A stretch of 64,000 nucleotides of DNA. Origin: Spirochaetota bacterium (GTDB taxonomy: Bacteria > Spirochaetota > UBA4802 > UBA5550). The notes below the pieces were generated by a model. The model saw only the letters and a program-made list of their open reading frames with translations, was not told the origin of the DNA and ran no database searches. Both the position numbers and the translations under genes were made by a program. Positions 27,696 through 44,330 of this stretch are shown here, one piece after another. Where the stretch lies: the NCBI GenBank assembly GCA_017999915.1, contig JAGNKX010000007.1, positions 1 to 64,000 on the forward strand. Direction: 5' to 3'. The first letter of the stretch is position 1; every line of letters begins with the position of its first letter.

Positions 27696-27705
27696 TATAT
27701 AAAAT

Positions 27706-28061
27706 GCCCCTCATCCCCCGACCCGCGTTCTCAGGATGAGGTTGATGCAAACGCAGCCACAGGATGTGGCGAAAGCGTTTGCCTTCTCCCATTGAGAACT
27801 GAAGAAAGGAGAAGGGGTGCTGAATTAAAGAACCTTATTGCGGGAACCCTCTCCTTTGTTGGTTGCCCCTCACCCACCGGACCGCGTTCTCAGGATGAGG
27901 TTGATGCAAACGCAGCCACAGGATGTGGTGAAAGCGTTTGCCCTCTCCCATTAAGAAATGAAGTAAGGCGAGGGGGCTGAGATAAATGCCTTAATGCGGA
28001 AACCCTCTCCTTATTTTCCGAGTTTAATGGGAGAGGGTGCCCCGGAGGGGCGGGTGAGGGG
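27706..28061. repeat. Dispersed C-rich/G-rich repeat, two tandem units with two-tier hairpins
   Basis: The block opens CCCCTCATCCCCC and closes CGGGTGAGGGG. Two units about 159 nt apart each contain a two-tier hairpin: GCAAACGC / GCGTTTGC with CCACA-GGA-TGTGG on top (27747-27782 and 27906-27941). Each is followed by CTCTCCCATT(A/G)AGAA and GAAACCCTCTCCTT-type segments shared with the arrays at 35.1-36.4 kb. It fills the gap before the FmdB-type gene. Confidence 0.85.
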
Positions 28062-34296: not shown

Positions 34297-34466
34297 GCCC
34301 TCACCCCCCCGGCCCCAAATGCACTATAGCCCCCCGACCCCCGGAGGGGGCGTGTGACAAAGTGAGTAATATTCATATGTGATATTATAAGTATGATGTA
34401 AATATTATGTATTTGAAATCCCAATAATTTGTTGGACTCATGCCCCCTGCGGGGGACAGGGGGGTC
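34297..34466. repeat. Fragments of the dispersed C-rich/G-rich repeat
   Basis: A partial copy (CCCTCACCCCCCCGGCCCC, then CCCCCCGACCCCCGGAGGGG) is at 34297-34358, and a CCCCCT/AGGGGG hairpin is at 34443-34465. AT-rich sequence lies between. This is the gap before the MBL-fold gene. Confidence 0.6.
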
Positions 34467-34486
34467 TAACTACAAGGAAGGACATT

Positions 34487-35110
34487 ATGATAATCGAGCA
34501 AATTCTGGTGACGCACATGGCGGTGTTCTGCTACCTGGTGGCGGACGAAAAAACGAAGGAGGGCGTCCTCATCGACCCGGCCGGTGACCATGAGCTCATA
34601 GAGAGCGTCGTGGCGAAGTACGGCATCGCGATAAAGTATATCATCAATACCCACGGCCATTTCGACCATACGTCGGGGAACGATTACTGGATGAAGAAGA
34701 CCGGCGCTTCGCTGCTGATCCACGAATCGGACGCGCGCAAGCTGGGGAGCCTGACGAGCAGGTTCTTCTCCCGGACCATGGGAGGGAAGACGTCTCCCCC
34801 GCCGCAGATGACCCTGAAGGACGGAGACGTGATACACGTCGGCTCGGGGCAGCTGCGGGTCATCGAAACGCCGGGCCATTCGGCCGGGAGCATCTGCCTC
34901 TACATGGCGGGGCATATTTTCACCGGCGATACCCTGTTCACCGAGGGTATGGGCCGCACCGATCTGCCCGACGGCTCCATGAAAAAGATCATGGAGTCGA
35001 TTAAGAACAAGATCCTCTCGCTGCCGGACAGCACGGTCATCTGGCCGGGCCATCATTACGGGCGCTATCCCACCTCGACCGTTAAGGAGCAGAAGGGGTA
35101 TTATCGGTAG
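34487..35110 (+). CDS. MBL-fold metallohydrolase (glyoxalase II/persulfide dioxygenase-like)
   Basis: The 207-residue product carries the metal motif THGHFDH (about residues 55-61), GHSAGS (about 130), FTGDTLF (about 145) and PGHHYG (about 190), in the usual order for glyoxalase II and ETHE1-type enzymes. It may hydrolyse an acyl-glutathione-like thioester or oxidise a persulfide. The sequence does not decide between them. An AAGGAAGG site is at 34474-34481. It is monocistronic between repeat blocks. Confidence 0.88.
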   Translation: MIIEQILVTHMAVFCYLVADEKTKEGVLIDPAGDHELIESVVAKYGIAIKYIINTHGHFDHTSGNDYWMKKTGASLLIHESDARKLGSLTSRFFSRTMGGKTSPPPQMTLKDGDVIHVGSGQLRVIETPGHSAGSICLYMAGHIFTGDTLFTEGMGRTDLPDGSMKKIMESIKNKILSLPDSTVIWPGHHYGRYPTSTVKEQKGYYR

Positions 35111-35119
35111 GATTATATT

Positions 35120-35661
35120 CCCTCACCCCCCCGGCCCCCTCTCCCATTAAGAATTGAAGAAAGGAGAGGGGGGGGCGATGATAAAGACGTTATAGCGGAA
35201 ACCCACTCCTTTGTTGTTGGTTGCCCCTCATCCCCCAGCCCCTAATTCCATTGAGAACTGAAGAAAGGTGAGGGAGTGCGATGATAAAGACGTTATAGCA
35301 GAAACCCACTCCTTTGTTGTTGGTTGCCCCTCATCCCCCGACCCCTTCTCCCATTAAGAATAGAAGAAAGGAGAAGGGGAGTTTAATTAAATGCCTTTAA
35401 TGCGGAAATCCTCTCCTTTATTGTTGGTAGCCCCTCACCCCCCGGCCCCCTCTCCAATTAAGAATTGAAGAAAGGCGAGGAGGGCTGAGATAAAAACCTT
35501 AATGCGGAAACCCTCTCCTTTTTACCAAGCTTAATGGGAGAGGCGCCGAACAGGACGTTTCAGTGTCGAGCGCGGCCAGGATGGCCAAAAAGCGCTCGAC
35601 GTGCGCGGAGCGCGGGTGAGGGACAATCCCCTGAGAGCGTGCATGGAGCGCGGGTGAGGGG
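35120..35661. repeat. Tandem array of about 103-nt C-rich/G-rich repeats with two-tier hairpin
   Basis: Units start CCCCTCA(C/T)CCCC at about 35120, 35224, 35327 and 35431, giving a period of 103-104 nt. Each holds a CTCTCCCATTAAGAATTGAA-type segment and a (C/G)GGAAACCC(A/T)CTCC-type segment. A right-hand end piece closes with CGGGTGAGGGG. Within that end piece a two-tier hairpin is inserted: GTCGAGCGC (35565-35573), GGCCA-GGA-TGGCC (35574-35586), AAAAA, GCGCTCGAC (35592-35600). No spacers as in CRISPR are present. Confidence 0.9.
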
Positions 35662-35735
35662 TAAAATCTTAAAAAGATTTTTTAATATTTCATATTCCTG
35701 TTCGTATAATCTATAAATAACAAGATAGAAATGAT

Positions 35736-36071
35736 ATGGACCATAAGAAGAAGTTATTCTCCAGAGAATTGAGAAAAGAATCAACCCTGCATGAAATAAA
35801 AGTTTGGGAAAAACTCAGGGACAGGAGATTCTTAAACCTCAAATTCAGACGCCAGCATGTGATTGAAGGTTTTGTTGTTGATTTTTATTGTCATCAATTA
35901 CGTCTAGCAATTGAAATTGATGGTGGTATACATGAGCGGCAACAGGATTATGATGATCTTCGACAGCATTTGATTGAATGTGAAGGGATAAGATTCATTC
36001 GTGTGACGAACGAAGAAGTCATTGCTGACATGGATAAATTATTTAAAAAAATAATCGATACATTCAGATGA
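35736..36071 (+). CDS. DUF559 (Vsr-like) endonuclease-fold protein
   Basis: The 111-residue protein is a complete DUF559 domain, a small PD-(D/E)xK-type nuclease fold related to Vsr. Catalytic-type residues are Asp in FVVDFYC (about residue 49) and Glu-x-Asp in AIEIDGGIHE (about 62-71). It also has the basic RRFLNLKFRRQHVIEG segment. The target and role of DUF559 proteins are unknown. The gene is more A+T-rich than neighbours and stands inside an array of 103-nt repeats: it begins 74 nt after one array block and ends 14 nt before the next. No ribosome site is obvious. Confidence 0.88.
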   Translation: MDHKKKLFSRELRKESTLHEIKVWEKLRDRRFLNLKFRRQHVIEGFVVDFYCHQLRLAIEIDGGIHERQQDYDDLRQHLIECEGIRFIRVTNEEVIADMDKLFKKIIDTFR

Positions 36072-36085
36072 TGTTGAGAATAGAG

Positions 36086-36400
36086 CCCCTCACCCCCCGG
36101 CCCCCTCTCCCATTAAGAAATGAAGAAAGGCGAGGGGGAGCGATGATAAAGTTCTTATGGCGAGACCCTACTGCTTTGTTGTTGGTTGCCCCTCACCCCC
36201 CCCCCCGGCCCCCTCTCCCATTAAGAATTGAAGAAAGGAGAGGGGGAGCGATGATAAAGACGTTATAGAGGAAACCCTCTCCTTTTTACCAAGCTTAATG
36301 GGAGAGGGGGCGCGGAGCGCGGGTGAGGGACAATCCCCTGAGAGCGTGCACGGATCGCAGGTGAGGGCTAAGAAATGGGAGAGGGGTAGGGGGTGAGGGG
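36086..36400. repeat. Second half of the 103-nt repeat array
   Basis: Units begin CCCCTCACCCCC at 36086 and 36189 (103 nt apart) and end in GGGTGAGGGG at 36400. The closing part (36276 on) repeats the closing part of the array at 35120-35661 nearly word for word, including ACCAAGCTTAATGGGAGAGG and AATCCCCTGAGAGCGTGCA, but without the two-tier hairpin insertion. Confidence 0.9.
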
Positions 36401-36418
36401 TTGAAAGACAGAACCCGC

Positions 36419-39205
36419 CTACTTCCCCGCCTGCTTCTGCACGTTTTCCAGCATCAGTTCGGCCCGCATCTTCTCGTAGAAGGAGTAGGTCGTGTAGAAC
36501 TTGAAGTACTTGTGCTGCAGGCTCGACAGGTCGATGCCCGTTATAAAGGGCTTGAAATCCTTCATGTCCGCTGCCGATGAGAAGAGACTTTTGGCGAAAT
36601 CCGCGACCGTGTTCCTGGTGAAGGCCCCGGTCTTGCGGCCGTCGGGAAGGGTCATGCTGTAGAGGATCTCGCGGTTCTGGCCGAAGGAGACGGAGAGGAC
36701 GCAGGGCTGTATCTTTTTCTGGATGTTCTCGATCCTGACGGAATGCTCCGGGTCTATCTTGCTCACCGAGTAGTTCATGTACATGTCCTTCTTCAGCTGG
36801 CAGAGCTCCACGGCGTTTTCGGATTTCGCCAGGGGGGACCCGGGGTTCACCGAGATTATCTGGGACGACACGTTTTTGGCGAAGAGGAAGAGCCTGGTCA
36901 GGTAATCGAACATGATGTCCGCCGGCTTGCGGAAATAGAAGAAGGAGCCGCTCTCGTCGAAGAGGTAGAAGTAGCTGTATTTCCTGTCGCTGTCGAAATA
37001 TATTTGGATCGTGTCGGCCCTGGAGTTTTCCACCATGGTGCGGAGGAAGTTGAGCTCCTTGATGGACGAATCGACCCTGATGAGGTTCTTCAGGCCGTAG
37101 TTGAAGGAGAGGCTCAGCATCATCTTCATCTCGGACTCGCAGAGAATGGTGTCGACGACGGTCGCTCCCCCCGATTTCTTGGTGTAGAAGATGAGGTACT
37201 GGTTCCCCACCATGGTGATGTAGCTCTTCTTGGCCTCCGGGTCGCCGCCGATGAAGAACTCGTAGATGTCCCGTATGAACGCCTTCAGGCGCATGAATTC
37301 CTTGGTGGCGCCGTAGGGGAGGGACGAGACTACGTTCACCGCGCTCTCGAAATCGCTCCTGGTCGCGAGGGCCCCGTTCAGGATCCGCGACAGGATCGGA
37401 ATGATGTCCATTTCGTTCTTGAAAACCTCGAACTTGGTGGATCCCCAGCTGTCGTGGTAGAGGAAGAAGAACTCGTCGATCTTCCGCGAATACTTCGAGT
37501 AGAGGTTAAAGATGATGTAGTTCATGACCGGGAAGGGGTCCCGGACGTAGTCCTCCTGGAAGGCGCTCATCTTCTTGAACATGAAATTGGACGAGACATC
37601 CGAGATCAGGTCGCGGAGGAAGCTGGTTTCCAGGCTGTGAAGGCCGGTATCGATCTCCAGCCGGGTGTAGTCCTTCTTGAACAGGCCGTTCAGGCTGATC
37701 CACACCGAGAGGCCCAGGAGGGTCTTGTCCTTGTGGAGGATGACGATCTGCGGGGTGTTGTCCACGATGAGGCGCTTGGACAGGAACCAGGTCTCGTTCC
37801 CCTTCTGGTCCCGCACGTACTCGATTTTCAGGAGCTTCTCCGGCGGATAGTTCTTGAAGCTCAGGGTGTTGTCGATCTTGTTGTCCGCCACCTGGAAGTG
37901 GGTGTAGATCTTCCGGCTGATGGCCTTGATCTCCTCGTCGGTGAAGCTGTGCTTGACCTTGTGCGTCTCCATGCTCCCGATGATGCGGCGGTATTCTTGA
38001 AGGACGAACTTCTTGGCGTTGTTCAGGAGCTTGCTCACCGGCTCGATGCTCCAGTTGTGGAAATCGTCCATTTCCTTGACCTTGACCGCGGCCCAGCCCC
38101 ATCTCTTCACATACTCGACCATGACGCGGGCCTTGTCCGGATTGTACCCTTCCTCGGCTTTATTGATGCGGGAGAGCATCGGCTCGACCTTGAGGTAAAA
38201 GGAGGCCTTCAGGACGTCCAGGGAATCCCGGTCCTTGACGATGTTGGCGTAATAATCGAACACGTTGTTGAACATGATGACATAGGCGTCGGTATATTCA
38301 GGCGTGAGCTTGTCTTCCTGGATGTTCTTCTTGATGATGTTGCAGATGAATGGGTTCTCGGAGTAATTGTTGATGTAGCGCGCCAGCAGCCCAAGCTTGA
38401 TGATCGACTTGAAGGGATTGCCCAGGGACTTGAGGATCTGGAACAGCCCCGCGGTGAGAAAATCCTCCTGCTTAATGCTGTAGATGTTCCCGATGTCTAT
38501 GAACTGGCCGGCCAGCTCCGATTGGCCCGCCGCCGCGAGCCAGTTCATGTAGGTCCTGTTGTCGGCGTTCTCCGGCACGACCCACCAGAAGGGCATCTTG
38601 CCGTTCAGCACTATCGAGCTGCGGAAAAACTCCTCCTTCAGGAGCTCCCCGATGGAGGATCCGGAAAACTGCTCCTCGTCGGCGAACACGTTGTTCCTGA
38701 TGCGGCCGATCTCGTTCAGGTAGAAATGCACTTCGATATTGAACTTGTCGAAGACCCAGCTTTCGATGGCGCGCAGCTTGGTCTTGTAAAGGTTGATGAG
38801 CTCCCGGCCATAGTGGCCGTCCTGGTAGCAGAGCCAGAAGTCGAAATCGGACTGCTTGGTGTAGGCGATGGTGCCGCAGCTGCCGATGAGGGCGATCATC
38901 AGCAGGAAGGGGTTGCTTGACCGGGAGCGGTGGATCCCCGCCTCCGGGAATCGTTTCGTGATGAACTCCATGAGCCGGGGCGAGGGAGAGTAATCGAAGA
39001 CGCCCTGGGGCAGGCGCGGCTCCGCCACGTGTCCCGGCAGTCCCGGAGCGTTGACATGGAGCAGGTAGGTGATGAATTCCAGGAGGTTAACCAGCTGCGG
39101 GTCCGACAGGATCCTCTGCAGGTTCCCAAGCTTCAACTCGTTGTATTTCCGGAACTTCTCTTGATACGTTTTTATTCTATCGATTATATTCGAACTGGCT
39201 TCCAT
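36419..39205 (-). CDS. Class I (CyaA-type) adenylate cyclase
   Basis: The 928-residue cytoplasmic protein (ATG at 39205; a GTG at 39247 is also possible) matches class I adenylate cyclase. The nucleotidyltransferase centre IGSCGTIAYTKQSDFDFWLC (about residues 107-126) supplies two Asp in DFDFW. Conserved downstream blocks include LNGKMPFWWVVP and FIDIGNIYSIKQEDFLTAGL and KSIIKLGLLARYI. It would make cAMP from ATP. E. coli CyaA is 848 residues. The C-terminal half (about residues 430-928) is less similar and probably regulatory. No phosphotransferase gene or Crp-like regulator is near. Confidence 0.85.
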   Translation of the reverse strand: MEASSNIIDRIKTYQEKFRKYNELKLGNLQRILSDPQLVNLLEFITYLLHVNAPGLPGHVAEPRLPQGVFDYSPSPRLMEFITKRFPEAGIHRSRSSNPFLLMIALIGSCGTIAYTKQSDFDFWLCYQDGHYGRELINLYKTKLRAIESWVFDKFNIEVHFYLNEIGRIRNNVFADEEQFSGSSIGELLKEEFFRSSIVLNGKMPFWWVVPENADNRTYMNWLAAAGQSELAGQFIDIGNIYSIKQEDFLTAGLFQILKSLGNPFKSIIKLGLLARYINNYSENPFICNIIKKNIQEDKLTPEYTDAYVIMFNNVFDYYANIVKDRDSLDVLKASFYLKVEPMLSRINKAEEGYNPDKARVMVEYVKRWGWAAVKVKEMDDFHNWSIEPVSKLLNNAKKFVLQEYRRIIGSMETHKVKHSFTDEEIKAISRKIYTHFQVADNKIDNTLSFKNYPPEKLLKIEYVRDQKGNETWFLSKRLIVDNTPQIVILHKDKTLLGLSVWISLNGLFKKDYTRLEIDTGLHSLETSFLRDLISDVSSNFMFKKMSAFQEDYVRDPFPVMNYIIFNLYSKYSRKIDEFFFLYHDSWGSTKFEVFKNEMDIIPILSRILNGALATRSDFESAVNVVSSLPYGATKEFMRLKAFIRDIYEFFIGGDPEAKKSYITMVGNQYLIFYTKKSGGATVVDTILCESEMKMMLSLSFNYGLKNLIRVDSSIKELNFLRTMVENSRADTIQIYFDSDRKYSYFYLFDESGSFFYFRKPADIMFDYLTRLFLFAKNVSSQIISVNPGSPLAKSENAVELCQLKKDMYMNYSVSKIDPEHSVRIENIQKKIQPCVLSVSFGQNREILYSMTLPDGRKTGAFTRNTVADFAKSLFSSAADMKDFKPFITGIDLSSLQHKYFKFYTTYSFYEKMRAELMLENVQKQAGK

Positions 39206-39417
39206 GGCTGCTGTGCTGTCTATCTGTCTATAAAGAATAAAAAACACCGAAAGGGCCGGATCGGCATCCCCATTGCAATTAACTTAAAACCTTATATCTA
39301 AAAAGCAAGTAAGAATTATCGGTTTGGCCGGATTTATGGAAAATAGTTCATGGACCTGTACAGTTATTGCCGATTATATAGAGAGAGGGAGCCATAATAA
39401 TCGCCAAGGAGACAGAT

Positions 39418-39930: not shown

Positions 39931-39940
39931 GGGGGGAGAA

Positions 39941-40110
39941 CCCCTCATCCCCTGGCCCCTTGTTAGATTTGTCCCTCACCCGCCCCTCCGGGGCACCCTC
40001 TCCCATTAAGCTTGGTAAAAAGGAGAGGGTTTCTGTAATAATGGATTTTACAACATTCCCCTTCTCCTTTTTTCAATTCTTAATGGGAGAAGGGGACAGG
40101 AGATGAGGGG
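39941..40110. repeat. Single dispersed repeat in opposite orientation
   Basis: A compact copy has inverted ends CCCCTCATCCCC and GGAGATGAGGGG. Its inner sequence matches the reverse complement of the closing part of the arrays (CCCATTAAGCTTGGTAAAAA) and then a TTCAATTCTTAATGGGAGAA segment. This single unit shows the element's likely borders. Confidence 0.85.
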
Positions 40111-40145: not shown

Positions 40146-43100
40146 TTAATTGTGCTCTATCCGCTGGTTGATGAAATACCTGCAAATACGGACCATTTTT
40201 TTTATCGAAGCCTCTTTGCGATACATTGGCAAATGCATGTATGGCATGTTGATGATTTTTATATCACCCTGTAATTTTTTTAAATATGAAGGAAATGGCA
40301 GATATTTCCATTCCAGAGACTTAAAGATCAATACGGGACAAGAAATACTATTGCCTTCATATTCCATGCATGCAGGTGTATAAAACTTATCATACAATGT
40401 CCTGTCTTCTTTTGTACCGTATGTGGCGATTTCCTTAATTTGCCCGAAAATTTTATAATATACCCTGCGGCTTTTGATTCTTAGGCTATTCAGTAAGTAT
40501 TTAAATCCATAATCGTTAATACCTTCAGAAAATGAATAGTTTCTACCTAATCTGGCAAAATCTAACAGAACCAGCAATCCGATTGTTTTCCCTCTCTTGA
40601 CCAATTCAAGGCAAACTTCAAAGGCCGCTATTTCATCCAGGCAGTATGACCAGATATAGAAGGGCCTGTCAGGATTCACTTCGATCATTTCATCGGCATA
40701 ATGTGAAGCCATCTTTTGAATCGAGAAACTGTTCATATCTTCAAATAGTATATCGCTGCCCACGATGTTGATCCCGTAAACCGGGCGGTCCTTTTCCCAG
40801 AATTCAGCGCATTTTTTTACAACCAGGGTAGAGCCGATATAAAATATCGGAATTTTCGATCCTTTATCATTGAATGTTTCCAACACACCGGTCTCTAATG
40901 AAGCTTTGCCTCCGCAATATTCGGCAATGCCATGGACAGTAGGATTTTTAAACAATCTTATAAGAGGTATCTCTTTTCCAAGAAACGTTTCGATTCTGTG
41001 TATTAACTTTACGGCCAGTAATGAATTACCACCCAGGTCAAAAAAATTTTCGAAGAGTCCAACCTTGTTGATCTTAAGCGTATCTTTAAAAATTTCCGCA
41101 ATCTTCAATTCAACATCCGTCCGGGGCCCGACAAATGTCTTTACGTCTGTGTCCGTCACCGACTCCGGCAAGGCGTTCCTGTTTATTTTACCGTTGGGAG
41201 TGAGGGGAATGCTGCCGAGCTCGATATAATGCGCCGGCACCATGTAGTCCGGCAGAGTATTTCTCATGTGGTTTTGAAGCCTGTGAATATCAATGGATGT
41301 ATCATGTTCGGGTACATAGTACGCCACAACCAGGGGATTTCCGGGATTGTCCTCCCGTAAAACCGCAATGCAGTCCTTTATGCCATTGAAGCTGCCAATG
41401 GCGGCCTCTATCTCGCCCAATTCGACCCTGAAGCCCCTGATTTTTACCTGTGAATCCCTTCTTCCGATATACTCCATCATGCCGTCAGGCAGGTATCTTC
41501 CCAGGTCCCCGGTCCTATACATCCTGTCTGCCGGACTGTTTGTAAAAGGATTGGTGATGAATCTTTCTTCGGTTAACTTTTCATCATTGAGATAACCCAG
41601 CGATAAGTGGGGGGAGCGAATATATATCTCTCCCGGTTCGCTGATACCGCACATTTTCATCCCGTCATTTAATATCAATAACTGGCTATTTTCAATGCCC
41701 CTGCCAATGGGCACCTTCAGGGACGGTGATTCATCATTGGCTATATAGTACCCCATTGCCTGGGGTGTTTCTGTTGTTCCATAGAAATTGACGCAGGCGC
41801 AGCGGGGGAATATTTTTTTCATTTTCCTCACTAACGATGACTGTAGGATATCCCCCCCGGAGAAGGCGTAGCGCAGGCAATGGATCTGATTTATGGCGGT
41901 CCTTTCGCCGGTGATTATCTCGCCCATGGCCGGCGTATAATGAATGACGCTGATGTTATTTTTTGATATCCACCCAAGCAGTTCCTTGGGCCTGTACATA
42001 ATGTCAGGTCCCGGTATGTGCAATGTCGCGCCTAAAGATAAGGGCAGAAAGATATCCCGTAACAGAGGATCATGGCCCAATCCGGAAAGCATCGAAACAT
42101 GTTCATGCTGATTCAAGTCAAATGTCCGTATCTGCCATTCGATAAAATTGACCACCGGCGTGTGTGTTCCCATGATCCCTTTAGGCAAGCCCGTGGTTCC
42201 GGAAGTATAGATCACATAGAGCATATCGCTGGGATCCGGGGCGGTCCCCGGGACGCCCTCCGGACAGTTTTCCAGTAACCGGCTGATCTCTCCATGGCTG
42301 TTTGGCAATGCCATGGTTTCGAAATGCTGGCGGATGTATTCAACCGTGTCTTTCTGAATATCAATCCCGTCAATGACTATGCAGAATTTCGGTTTGGCGT
42401 CATTGAGATAGTGAAGAACGCGAGACTGCGGATTTGAGGGGTCAATAATAAGAAAGGCAGCGCCCGATTTAATTGTTCCCAGTATCGAGCAGACGAGGGC
42501 GGCGCCTTTTTTCGCAAGGATCGCCACGGTATCGCCCCTGCCGATATTTTTACCATGCAGATAATGGGCGACTCTGTTTGATGTCACTGACAATTGCCCG
42601 TAGGTCCATGTTTCGTTTTCGTCGGATACAGCGACCTTGCCGGGATCCATCTCCGCGTGCCGGTTGAAATCGTCAATAATTAGCCTGCCCGGATTTTCTT
42701 TGAGAACGGCTGTGGGATCGGGAAGCAGATATGCCATGTTCTCCGTTACAAGAGAATGGTCGCGGATAGGGGAATCCGGTTTTTCCATGACCTGGGAAAT
42801 CAGACATTCGATTTGCTCCATGATAAATTGTATTCTTACTTCAGTGAAGAGGTTCTTGTTATATATCAATTCCAGCTTGATCCGTTCGTACGGCCTTATA
42901 TACAGCTCGATATCGTAATTGGTCCCCCGGGTCGCTATTTCCGGTGTCAGGTTATTGCAATTGATTCCCACCAGGGTCAGGTTGTCTTCCGGATAGGGGA
43001 AGGAGTTGATGAATACCTGGAACAGGGGATTGATATTGGCTTCGCGCTTTACATTAAGGTCTTCCACGATTTTCTGAAAGGGGTATTCTTCATTGGCCAC

Positions 43101-44072
43101 TGAAGTCATGACATCTTCATTCACCGATTCTAAAACGCTCCTGAACGTTTGATCGCCGTGTATTCTTGCCCGATGCACCAGTGTCACCACAAACATGCCA
43201 ATCAGATCCTGGATTTCACTTCGTTTTCTTCCCGATGAGGGGAAACCGACCAGCAGGTCTTCCTGGGCGGTTATTTTGCATAAAAGTATGTCAAAAACAG
43301 ATAACATGAACTTGAAAACAGTGGTGTTTTCTTGACTAATGAAATTTCGTATTTGATTTGATAAGGGAATTGATAGAATTTTCACCAGGGAAGACGCTTC
43401 ATACTTTTCTTTTTCAAACCTTGAATAATCAGCCGGTAAAGTTAATCTCTCCCTCGGTTCGGCAAGCTTTTCAATCCAATAACGCTTTTGTTCTATTATC
43501 TTTTCGCTGTTATAATCTTCTATTTGCTGAACCGAATATTCCTGATACGAGGTTGATAATTCCGGCAATTGCGGTTCGCCGTTATTGACATAGGCATTAT
43601 AGCATAGCGAAAGGTCATTGAAGAATATCCGCTGCGAAATGCCATCGCCGATTATATGATGCATGTCGATATATAGATAATGCTCATCAGTACCGGTTTG
43701 GATGAGAAACAGATGAAATAAGGAATCCTCTGTTAAAACCAATGGCCTTTTTGTTGCCTCAAATAAAACTCTCTTTATTTCTTCATATGAGGAATTCGGC
43801 ATCTGTTTTATTTCTAAAGAGACATCGGTGTGTTCAGAAACAGCCTGAATAGGGTCGCCATTGTTATTAATGCGAAAAGTTGTTCGCAAAGATCCATGTC
43901 TTTTTATTACATGATTGACGCTCTTCTGCAGGGCTTCAATATTCAAATGACCATGGAGTTGGAAAATACTGGGCAGCCGGTAATAGGTATTGCTGGGCGC
44001 GAGTTTGTCCAGGAACCAGAGACGTTCCTGGCTGAATGAAAGGAGTCCGTATTGAAGAAAAAAGTCGTTCAT
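40146..44072 (-). CDS. One-module NRPS (C-A-PCP-TE) with cysteine thioesterase
   Basis: The 1308-residue protein has a condensation domain (1-440, HHIIGDG at 138-144) and an adenylation domain (about 465-960, ATP loop YTSGTTGLPKG at 622-632, RTGDLGRYLPDG). It also has a carrier domain with Ser1017 in LGGNSLLAVKL and a C-terminal alpha/beta-hydrolase thioesterase (about 1070-1308). The thioesterase nucleophile Ser is Cys1144 (SYCLDEIAAFE), with Asp1171 and His1280 as probable partners. The A domain's GLGHDPLLRDIFLPL resembles aminoadipate-reductase-like A domains. Its position in a polysaccharide locus suggests transfer of an amino acid or small acyl group to a glycan. The substrate is unknown. 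Confidence 0.93.
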   Translation of the reverse strand: MNDFFLQYGLLSFSQERLWFLDKLAPSNTYYRLPSIFQLHGHLNIEALQKSVNHVIKRHGSLRTTFRINNNGDPIQAVSEHTDVSLEIKQMPNSSYEEIKRVLFEATKRPLVLTEDSLFHLFLIQTGTDEHYLYIDMHHIIGDGISQRIFFNDLSLCYNAYVNNGEPQLPELSTSYQEYSVQQIEDYNSEKIIEQKRYWIEKLAEPRERLTLPADYSRFEKEKYEASSLVKILSIPLSNQIRNFISQENTTVFKFMLSVFDILLCKITAQEDLLVGFPSSGRKRSEIQDLIGMFVVTLVHRARIHGDQTFRSVLESVNEDVMTSVANEEYPFQKIVEDLNVKREANINPLFQVFINSFPYPEDNLTLVGINCNNLTPEIATRGTNYDIELYIRPYERIKLELIYNKNLFTEVRIQFIMEQIECLISQVMEKPDSPIRDHSLVTENMAYLLPDPTAVLKENPGRLIIDDFNRHAEMDPGKVAVSDENETWTYGQLSVTSNRVAHYLHGKNIGRGDTVAILAKKGAALVCSILGTIKSGAAFLIIDPSNPQSRVLHYLNDAKPKFCIVIDGIDIQKDTVEYIRQHFETMALPNSHGEISRLLENCPEGVPGTAPDPSDMLYVIYTSGTTGLPKGIMGTHTPVVNFIEWQIRTFDLNQHEHVSMLSGLGHDPLLRDIFLPLSLGATLHIPGPDIMYRPKELLGWISKNNISVIHYTPAMGEIITGERTAINQIHCLRYAFSGGDILQSSLVRKMKKIFPRCACVNFYGTTETPQAMGYYIANDESPSLKVPIGRGIENSQLLILNDGMKMCGISEPGEIYIRSPHLSLGYLNDEKLTEERFITNPFTNSPADRMYRTGDLGRYLPDGMMEYIGRRDSQVKIRGFRVELGEIEAAIGSFNGIKDCIAVLREDNPGNPLVVAYYVPEHDTSIDIHRLQNHMRNTLPDYMVPAHYIELGSIPLTPNGKINRNALPESVTDTDVKTFVGPRTDVELKIAEIFKDTLKINKVGLFENFFDLGGNSLLAVKLIHRIETFLGKEIPLIRLFKNPTVHGIAEYCGGKASLETGVLETFNDKGSKIPIFYIGSTLVVKKCAEFWEKDRPVYGINIVGSDILFEDMNSFSIQKMASHYADEMIEVNPDRPFYIWSYCLDEIAAFEVCLELVKRGKTIGLLVLLDFARLGRNYSFSEGINDYGFKYLLNSLRIKSRRVYYKIFGQIKEIATYGTKEDRTLYDKFYTPACMEYEGNSISCPVLIFKSLEWKYLPFPSYLKKLQGDIKIINMPYMHLPMYRKEASIKKMVRICRYFINQRIEHN

Positions 44073-44156
44073 ATTTGCTTTATTGAAAAAATGTATCAGA
44101 TTATTACTTCCTCAATCATATAAAGCTTAGGCTGTCTGTCAAGATACAATTTCGAT

Positions 44157-44298
44157 CTCACCCGCGCTTTGCTCGCCATTTTTTAATCCTCACCCACAGA
44201 CCTCTCCATAAAATGGTGAGTTGGAAAAGTGTTGAAATCATTAATACCGAAACCCTTTCCATTTGATGGAGAGGGTGCGCGGAGCGTGAGTGAGGTCG
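44157..44298. repeat. Diverged dispersed repeat copy
   Basis: It opens CTCACCCGCGC and closes GCGCGGAGCGTGAGTGAGG. The middle TAATACCGAAACCCTTTCCA is the diagnostic internal word. It fills the gap between the VanZ and NRPS genes. Confidence 0.65.
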
Positions 44299-44330
44299 GA
44301 CAATGGAACTGGGGGTGAGAGACCAAACCC

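Follow-up and report, generated by a model that had tools for sequence, protein, structure and literature searches.

Short palindromic repeats are abundant in the intergenic regions of very many bacteria, and for several classes of them we know of no mobilising enzyme. The window, as the whole analysed stretch of 64,000 nt from a Spirochaetota genome is called here, contains a small nuclease gene of the DUF559 family with such repeats on both sides. This locus raises the question of whether gene and repeats form one mobile unit, and what moves it. The open papers that name DUF559 report no repeat link for it. The reading preferred in this study, with a probability of roughly 0.6, is that the window holds one copy of a mobile family of palindromic repeats in which the only gene encodes an EDxHD/Vsr-like nuclease acting on its own repeats.

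Structure of the locus

The gene and its repeats lie between a metallo-beta-lactamase-fold (MBL-fold) gene and cyaA, in the following order:

34487–35110, + strand: left neighbour, an MBL-fold gene (PF00753), one flank of the insertion site
35120–35431, + strand: three right-truncated repeat units, 103–105 nt each, of the dispersed type-D family CCTCAYCCCC..CCCCTCTCCCATTAAGAATTGAAGAAAGGAGAGGGG (TRF, repeat search, unit listing)
35432–35664, + strand: full type-D repeat ending the left block, with left hairpin, right hairpin, inner extra palindrome and GGGTGAGG end
35665–35735, + strand: A+T-rich leader of the nuclease gene (sequence)
35736–36071, + strand: DUF559 (EDxHD/PD-(D/E)XK, Vsr-like) nuclease gene, 111 aa (PF04480, alignment, AlphaFold)
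36087–36190, + strand: right-truncated type-D unit of the right block (repeat search, unit listing)
36191–36371, + strand: full type-D repeat ending the right block, a single long ssDNA hairpin (z −6.15)
36419–39247, − strand: right neighbour, a convergent class I adenylate cyclase gene (cyaA; PF01295/PF12633), the other flank of the insertion site

Six copies of the unit surround the gene, with start-to-start spacings of 104, 103, 104, 655 and 108 nt in a repeat search of the window, and TRF placed a tandem array at 35120–35521 (period 104, 3.9 copies). Four units before the gene and two after it, as given in the preliminary description, are present. Its period of 103–104 nt agrees with the spacings, but the 103-nt unit is a right-truncated form and the full element is longer. 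Both blocks do close in nearly the same right-end piece (35603–35664 and 36310–36371, 94% identical), and the gene is indeed A+T-rich, with 35% G+C against 51% for the window. The distances between gene and blocks, first put at 74 and 14 nt, were measured as 71 nt from the first block to the gene start and 15 nt from the gene end to the second block. The assignment of the ORF to DUF559 was borne out by PF04480, with 106.9 bits against a gathering cut-off of 20.6. Known RNA families were absent between 33 and 38 kb of the window. A defence system was considered and rejected; the padloc matches were weak, and the best one was tied with a homing endonuclease model.

The type-D repeat and gene-less copies

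One type-D unit used as a query gave 64 matches in the 5.46-Mb genome. Judged from solo copies, the full dispersed element runs from CCTCACCC to GGGTGAGG, is about 120–220 bp long and has a stem-loop near either end. Each block of the window array closes with one such full copy, and the copy at 36195–36330 folds into one long ssDNA hairpin (z −6.15) whose stability was equalled by 0 of 200 shuffled sequences. Since each block consists of truncated units and one full copy of this common dispersed repeat, the window array is a local expansion of a common repeat. The tandem array had been taken as the functional unit, and this part of the preliminary description was rejected: a single unit, or half of one, flanks most DUF559 genes on either side, the 104-nt unit is the solo repeat in truncated form, and the array looks secondary. 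Copies of the family had further been placed at 8.6, 27.7, 30.0, 34.3, 39.9 and 44.2 kb, and CCTCACCC, GGGTGAGG or CCCTCTCC motifs were found at all six sites. Four of these were delimited as follows:

27700–28060, no strand assigned: single or double type-D copies with nested ACATCCTGT-like palindromes (unit search, motifs)
34299–34475, no strand assigned: remnant with a type-D left end and a type-B pair (CCCCCCGACCCCCGG...GGGGGACAGGGGGG) that encloses A+T-rich sequence of about 85 nt (sequence, ORF list, motifs)
39940–40100, no strand assigned: solo type-D copy (motifs, unit listing)
44150–44320, no strand assigned: solo degenerate type-D copy (motifs, unit listing)

The remnant at 34299–34475 contains no ORF of 90 aa or more. 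In general, gene-less copies of DUF559-linked repeats measure about 100–220 bp and are REPIN/MITE-like. Palindromes of the ACATCCTGT or CCTCATCCTGAGAACG type are nested in hairpin arms at 8.6, 27.7–28.0 and 35.54–35.60 kb of the window, and likewise at loci of several genera (L015, L082, L088 and L106). An NRPS-like ORF of 1308 aa (40146–44072) lies between the solo type-D copies at 39.9 and 44.2 kb; this ORF was the top-scoring control in the flank test described below.

Association of DUF559 genes with flanking repeats

All three DUF559 loci in the genome of the window are flanked on both sides by hairpin repeats with C-runs and G-runs, the other two by type-B repeats (GCCCCCTnCGGGGG-like). 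Loci in relatives were located with a profile made from a five-sequence DUF559 alignment, a search blind to flanks, which found DUF559 in 35 of 59 relatives; GC-rich hairpin repeats occur at nearly every one of these loci. Many loci escaped a strict search for 7-bp hairpins, and a flank-alignment test was used in its place. The 250 nt upstream was aligned to the reverse-complemented 250 nt downstream, and a score of 30 or more was a pass. Across about 35 relatives, an inverted flank match was found at 38 of 70 DUF559 loci versus 1 of 148 other ORFs of the same loci (Fisher 6e-22). Outside the phylum (Cyanobacteria, Chloroflexi, Bacteroidota, Gemmatimonadota, Planctomycetota, Armatimonadota, Cloacimonadota, Margulisbacteria and others), flank repeats in inverted or direct orientation reached a score of 28 at 55/71 DUF559 loci and 5/155 controls (6e-32). 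A lack of DUF559 enrichment at repeats across genomes had been named beforehand as evidence against a link; the enrichment is strong in the gene's own phylum and in others. The suggestion that a Vsr-like nuclease acts on palindromic repeats, or is mobilised with them, gains support well outside this locus from this enrichment and from the empty sites reported below, but not in the part that made the tandem array the unit.

ParE toxin genes gave 0/28 in the flank test. When ORFs were extended, DUF559 passed at 31 of 57 loci, and the difference was significant against ParE (p=1e-7) but not against GIY-YIG (p=0.11). CCCC hairpins lay on both sides of the gene at 32/59 and 32/71 DUF559 loci in two sets, versus 1/26 for GIY-YIG and 0/30 for ParE. 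About a quarter or more of the DUF559 loci fail the flank test. Repeat-flanked DUF559 genes also occur in sphingomonads and Picosynechococcus; the E. coli gene has only a short repeat-like stretch downstream, and several other plasmid loci have a repeat on one side only.

Repeat type and nuclease clade

Between genomes, the similarity of flank repeats rose with nuclease identity, with medians of 18 below 50% identity, 28 at 50–60% and 41 above (0/500 permutations). For 47 genes that share their genome with a paralogue, the flank repeats resembled those of the closest nuclease elsewhere more than those of the most distant such paralogue (median 34 versus 17, p=1e-7). In these comparisons repeat type goes with the nuclease clade, not with the host genome. 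Common descent of gene and flanks explains part of the correlation, and such joint descent amounts to gene and repeats being one unit. The correlation of protein and flanks across phyla was weak (rho 0.17, 16/1000 permutations).

Among genomes with five or more repeat cores, the cognate nuclease was present in 6 of 8 for type A (p about 1e-5) and 11 of 13 for type B (p about 7e-6); nuclease types were set by eye from flanks and protein clade, which makes these tests partly circular at the gene's own copy, a circularity absent for the many copies away from the gene, and the reversed control of the type-B core search was poor because the pattern read backwards resembles itself. One genome, G000, has 38 type-A repeat cores and no type-A nuclease gene. 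Thus, repeats can persist after the gene is lost or rely on a different helper, and the type-A repeats of G000 are possibly a relic family after gene loss.

Mobility and insertion sites

In Anabaena/Dolichospermum relatives, a unit of ~600 bp consisting of the gene between two repeats of about 92 bp is found with 90–97% identity between flanking sequences that are unrelated, and homology breaks off near the repeat ends. The genome G002 has two 300-bp copies, 99.3% identical and with the gene internally deleted, at two sites; there are also gene-less forms of ~190 bp that share the hairpins and outer TIR of these copies. Candidate target duplications in G002 are 4–5 bp long and A/T-rich (e.g. 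AATTA, TAATT); none could be fixed for type D or for the cyanobacterial units.

The insertion site in the window was compared with the same junction in relatives. The MBL-cyaA junction measures a few nt in G003 and about 30 nt in G001; in G005 it contains a short stub of a repeat, and in G004 another DUF559 element, of type B. The comparison for empty sites, proposed earlier as a check, thus found this site empty in two sister species. A further solo copy, upstream of recR, is missing in G001, G003, G004 and G005. At one and the same short junction, sister species differ in repeat or DUF559 type (L068 and L129 versus window 35111–36418; L022 and L284), and shared junctions with differing elements suggest insertion hot spots. 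At the level of sequence, the linkage of gene and repeats, their co-diversification, the insertion polymorphism and the presence of the unit at unrelated sites are evident.

Fold and selection of the nuclease

E20, D49, E60-x-D62 and H66 are invariant in the DUF559 protein alignment. In Foldseek, the AlphaFold model of the 111-aa protein (pLDDT 88.7) matched 3hrl, a DUF559 structure, and the I-Bth0305I catalytic domain (3r3p, E 1.7e-5). A profile search pointed to I-Bth0305I as well (E 5e-5), and Vsr structures were weaker in the fold ranking (1vsr at rank 15, 1cw0 at rank 20). Among structural relatives that have been characterised by experiment, the homing endonuclease I-Bth0305I is the nearest. 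Many DUF559 copies in the relatives' genomes have decayed, with stops and fragments. The dN/dS values of close DUF559 gene pairs are 0.03–0.29 and indicate that the protein is under purifying selection, its function being kept while many copies decay.

Proposed mechanism and alternative explanations

The ends of the proposed element would be hairpin-forming inverted palindromic repeats with C-runs and G-runs. Its autonomous form would be repeat-DUF559-repeat, about 0.5–0.6 kb, and the far commoner gene-less repeat pair of about 100–220 bp would be moved in trans, as in REPINs or MITEs. Each nuclease clade, we infer, would recognise and bind the hairpins at the ends of its cognate repeats and then nick or cut there, and host repair would place copies of the repeat, some including the gene and some not, at new sites, most of them intergenic; the repeats would spread as a result, and the nuclease itself would be what amplifies them. 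In the window, a type-D element would have entered the MBL-fold/cyaA junction, and the flanking repeats would later have expanded to short tandem blocks. No lone nuclease is known to join DNA, which counts against this proposal at the integration step.

The strongest rival is homing into existing repeats. According to this explanation, the repeats spread by other means, and DUF559 passes from one repeat to another by break repair, copying nothing but itself, with multicopy, harmless intergenic repeats as its insertion sites. Such a history fits the kinship with I-Bth0305I, the repeats without a cognate gene in some genomes (type A in G000) and the position of the gene, which often lies mid-unit between the two hairpins of a unit (e.g. 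L153, L155 and L156), as homing insertion would give. However, high-copy families are seldom without a cognate gene (2/8 genomes for type A, 2/13 for type B), and the entire repeat-gene-repeat unit occurs between unrelated host flanks, which indicates that the unit itself moves. Homing is considered unlikely.

Conventional transposition is less probable still. Here, the repeats would be the ends of a MITE or IS moved by an unlinked transposase, and DUF559 would be cargo kept otherwise; we regard this as a rather improbable account. It draws on G001 and G002, where an outer TIR (ACTYGAGTTAGGCGAA) with the candidate 4–5-bp target duplications lies beyond the hairpins. This TIR could belong to an unseen transposase. 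However, among the copies listed for these two draft genomes with a 1-mismatch pattern, inward-facing TIR pairs are separated by about 125–480 bp, which leaves no room for a transposase, and DUF559, in the longest pair, is the only gene between them. None of the 20 RAYT/Y1 transposases of the genus has DUF559-type repeats (other repeats are found there), and RAYT was rejected as the mobiliser in this genus. Moreover, the same gene family is associated with differing repeat families in many phyla, and ParE cargo genes lie outside such repeats.

The view that the gene of a VSP-repair or restriction nuclease piles up in repeat-rich intergenic regions is very improbable: Caulobacter VsrA, a DUF559 protein, does act as a Vsr-like enzyme (PMC12907096), and some DUF559 genes adjoin or lie within methyltransferase genes, but neither same-locus control genes nor ParE genes have such flanks, which rules out chance or an accessory-gene habitat, and repeat type goes with the nuclease clade. 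Several DUF559 proteins encoded near methyltransferase genes may nevertheless work in R-M or VSP repair.

Comparison with known systems

The mobile repeat-nuclease family proposed here resembles the REPIN/RAYT system in its hairpin inverted doublets, many gene-less copies, tandem clusters and repeat-flanked enzyme gene, and in a repeat type tied to the enzyme clade (PMC3116915). It differs in that DUF559 is a PD-(D/E)XK/EDxHD nuclease whereas RAYT is a Y1 transposase, and the repeats of the RAYT genes in the genus are unrelated. With the EDxHD homing endonuclease I-Bth0305I it shares the fold of the catalytic domain, profile similarity and the character of a selfish nuclease gene. However, no intron or intein was seen around the DUF559 gene, which is often inside a repeat unit; the protein (111 aa) has no separate DNA-binding domain, and the gene is flanked by multicopy palindromic repeats with abundant gene-less copies. 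The likeness to Vsr lies in a nuclease fold that matches more weakly (1vsr, 1cw0). In contrast to Vsr, the DUF559 gene of the window has no linkage to a cytosine methyltransferase, its neighbours being the MBL-fold gene and cyaA, and it sits in mobile repeats.

Short non-autonomous inverted-repeat copies, and candidate 4–5-bp target duplications in one genus, recall MITEs with an autonomous IS, but the nuclease is the only ORF found between the ends. As with Rickettsia palindromic elements (RPE; PMC10969869), some copies lie in frame inside genes and are translated; this comparison rests on in-frame placement (L172, L162, L222 and L296) and does not claim RPE membership, the sequence being different and an in-frame copy here being able to carry the DUF559 gene as well. 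At these four loci methyltransferase genes contain DUF559 and its own repeats in frame, and gene-less repeats within such genes are translated as well (e.g. SPSPSTGEGRGEG). CGTC REPs, for which no dedicated transposase is known (PMC3733652), are likewise palindromic; they differ in sequence from the DUF559 repeats, and in this phylum repeats of the CGTC kind appear to pair with small GIY-YIG genes.

The RAYT genes of the genus (L249–L268) have repeats of their own, GCTCTGACCCC... and GGGTTTAAACCC. A TTCGTATA-like upstream motif is common to these RAYT genes and the DUF559 gene of the window.

A parallel in GIY-YIG genes and its significance

GIY-YIG genes had been taken as a control, and 10 of 29 proved to be repeat-flanked in the flank test; thus, they are not a negative control. 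Their repeats belong to another class (GTCATTGCGAG, GTCATTCCCGCG, GTCATCCTGAGCG and similar). Motifs of the GTCAT type were found on both sides of 9/26 GIY-YIG genes, 0/59 and 0/71 DUF559 genes and 0/30 ParE genes. By description, these repeats look like the CGTC REPs of PMC3733652.

Two nuclease families with their own repeat classes point to a general principle. They may represent an undescribed class of mobile DNA, in which small nucleases act alone, without transposase or recombinase, to spread the commonest intergenic repeats in most bacterial phyla, DUF559 acting on C-run/G-run hairpins and GIY-YIG on GTCAT/CGTC-type REPs. This wider proposal is tentative, its chances being placed slightly below even. 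If lone nucleases are the missing partners, the long-standing question of how such repeats are mobilised can be put to a direct test. A large domain of unknown function would gain a role, and a spread of DNA that needs no transposase may exist. The proposal, if true, would also account for draft contigs often ending at DUF559 genes and for the translated repeat inserts within methyltransferases.

Small single-domain GIY-YIG genes with GTCAT/CGTC-type palindromes on both sides were observed at L312, L314, L316, L318, L320–L323, L332 and L337.
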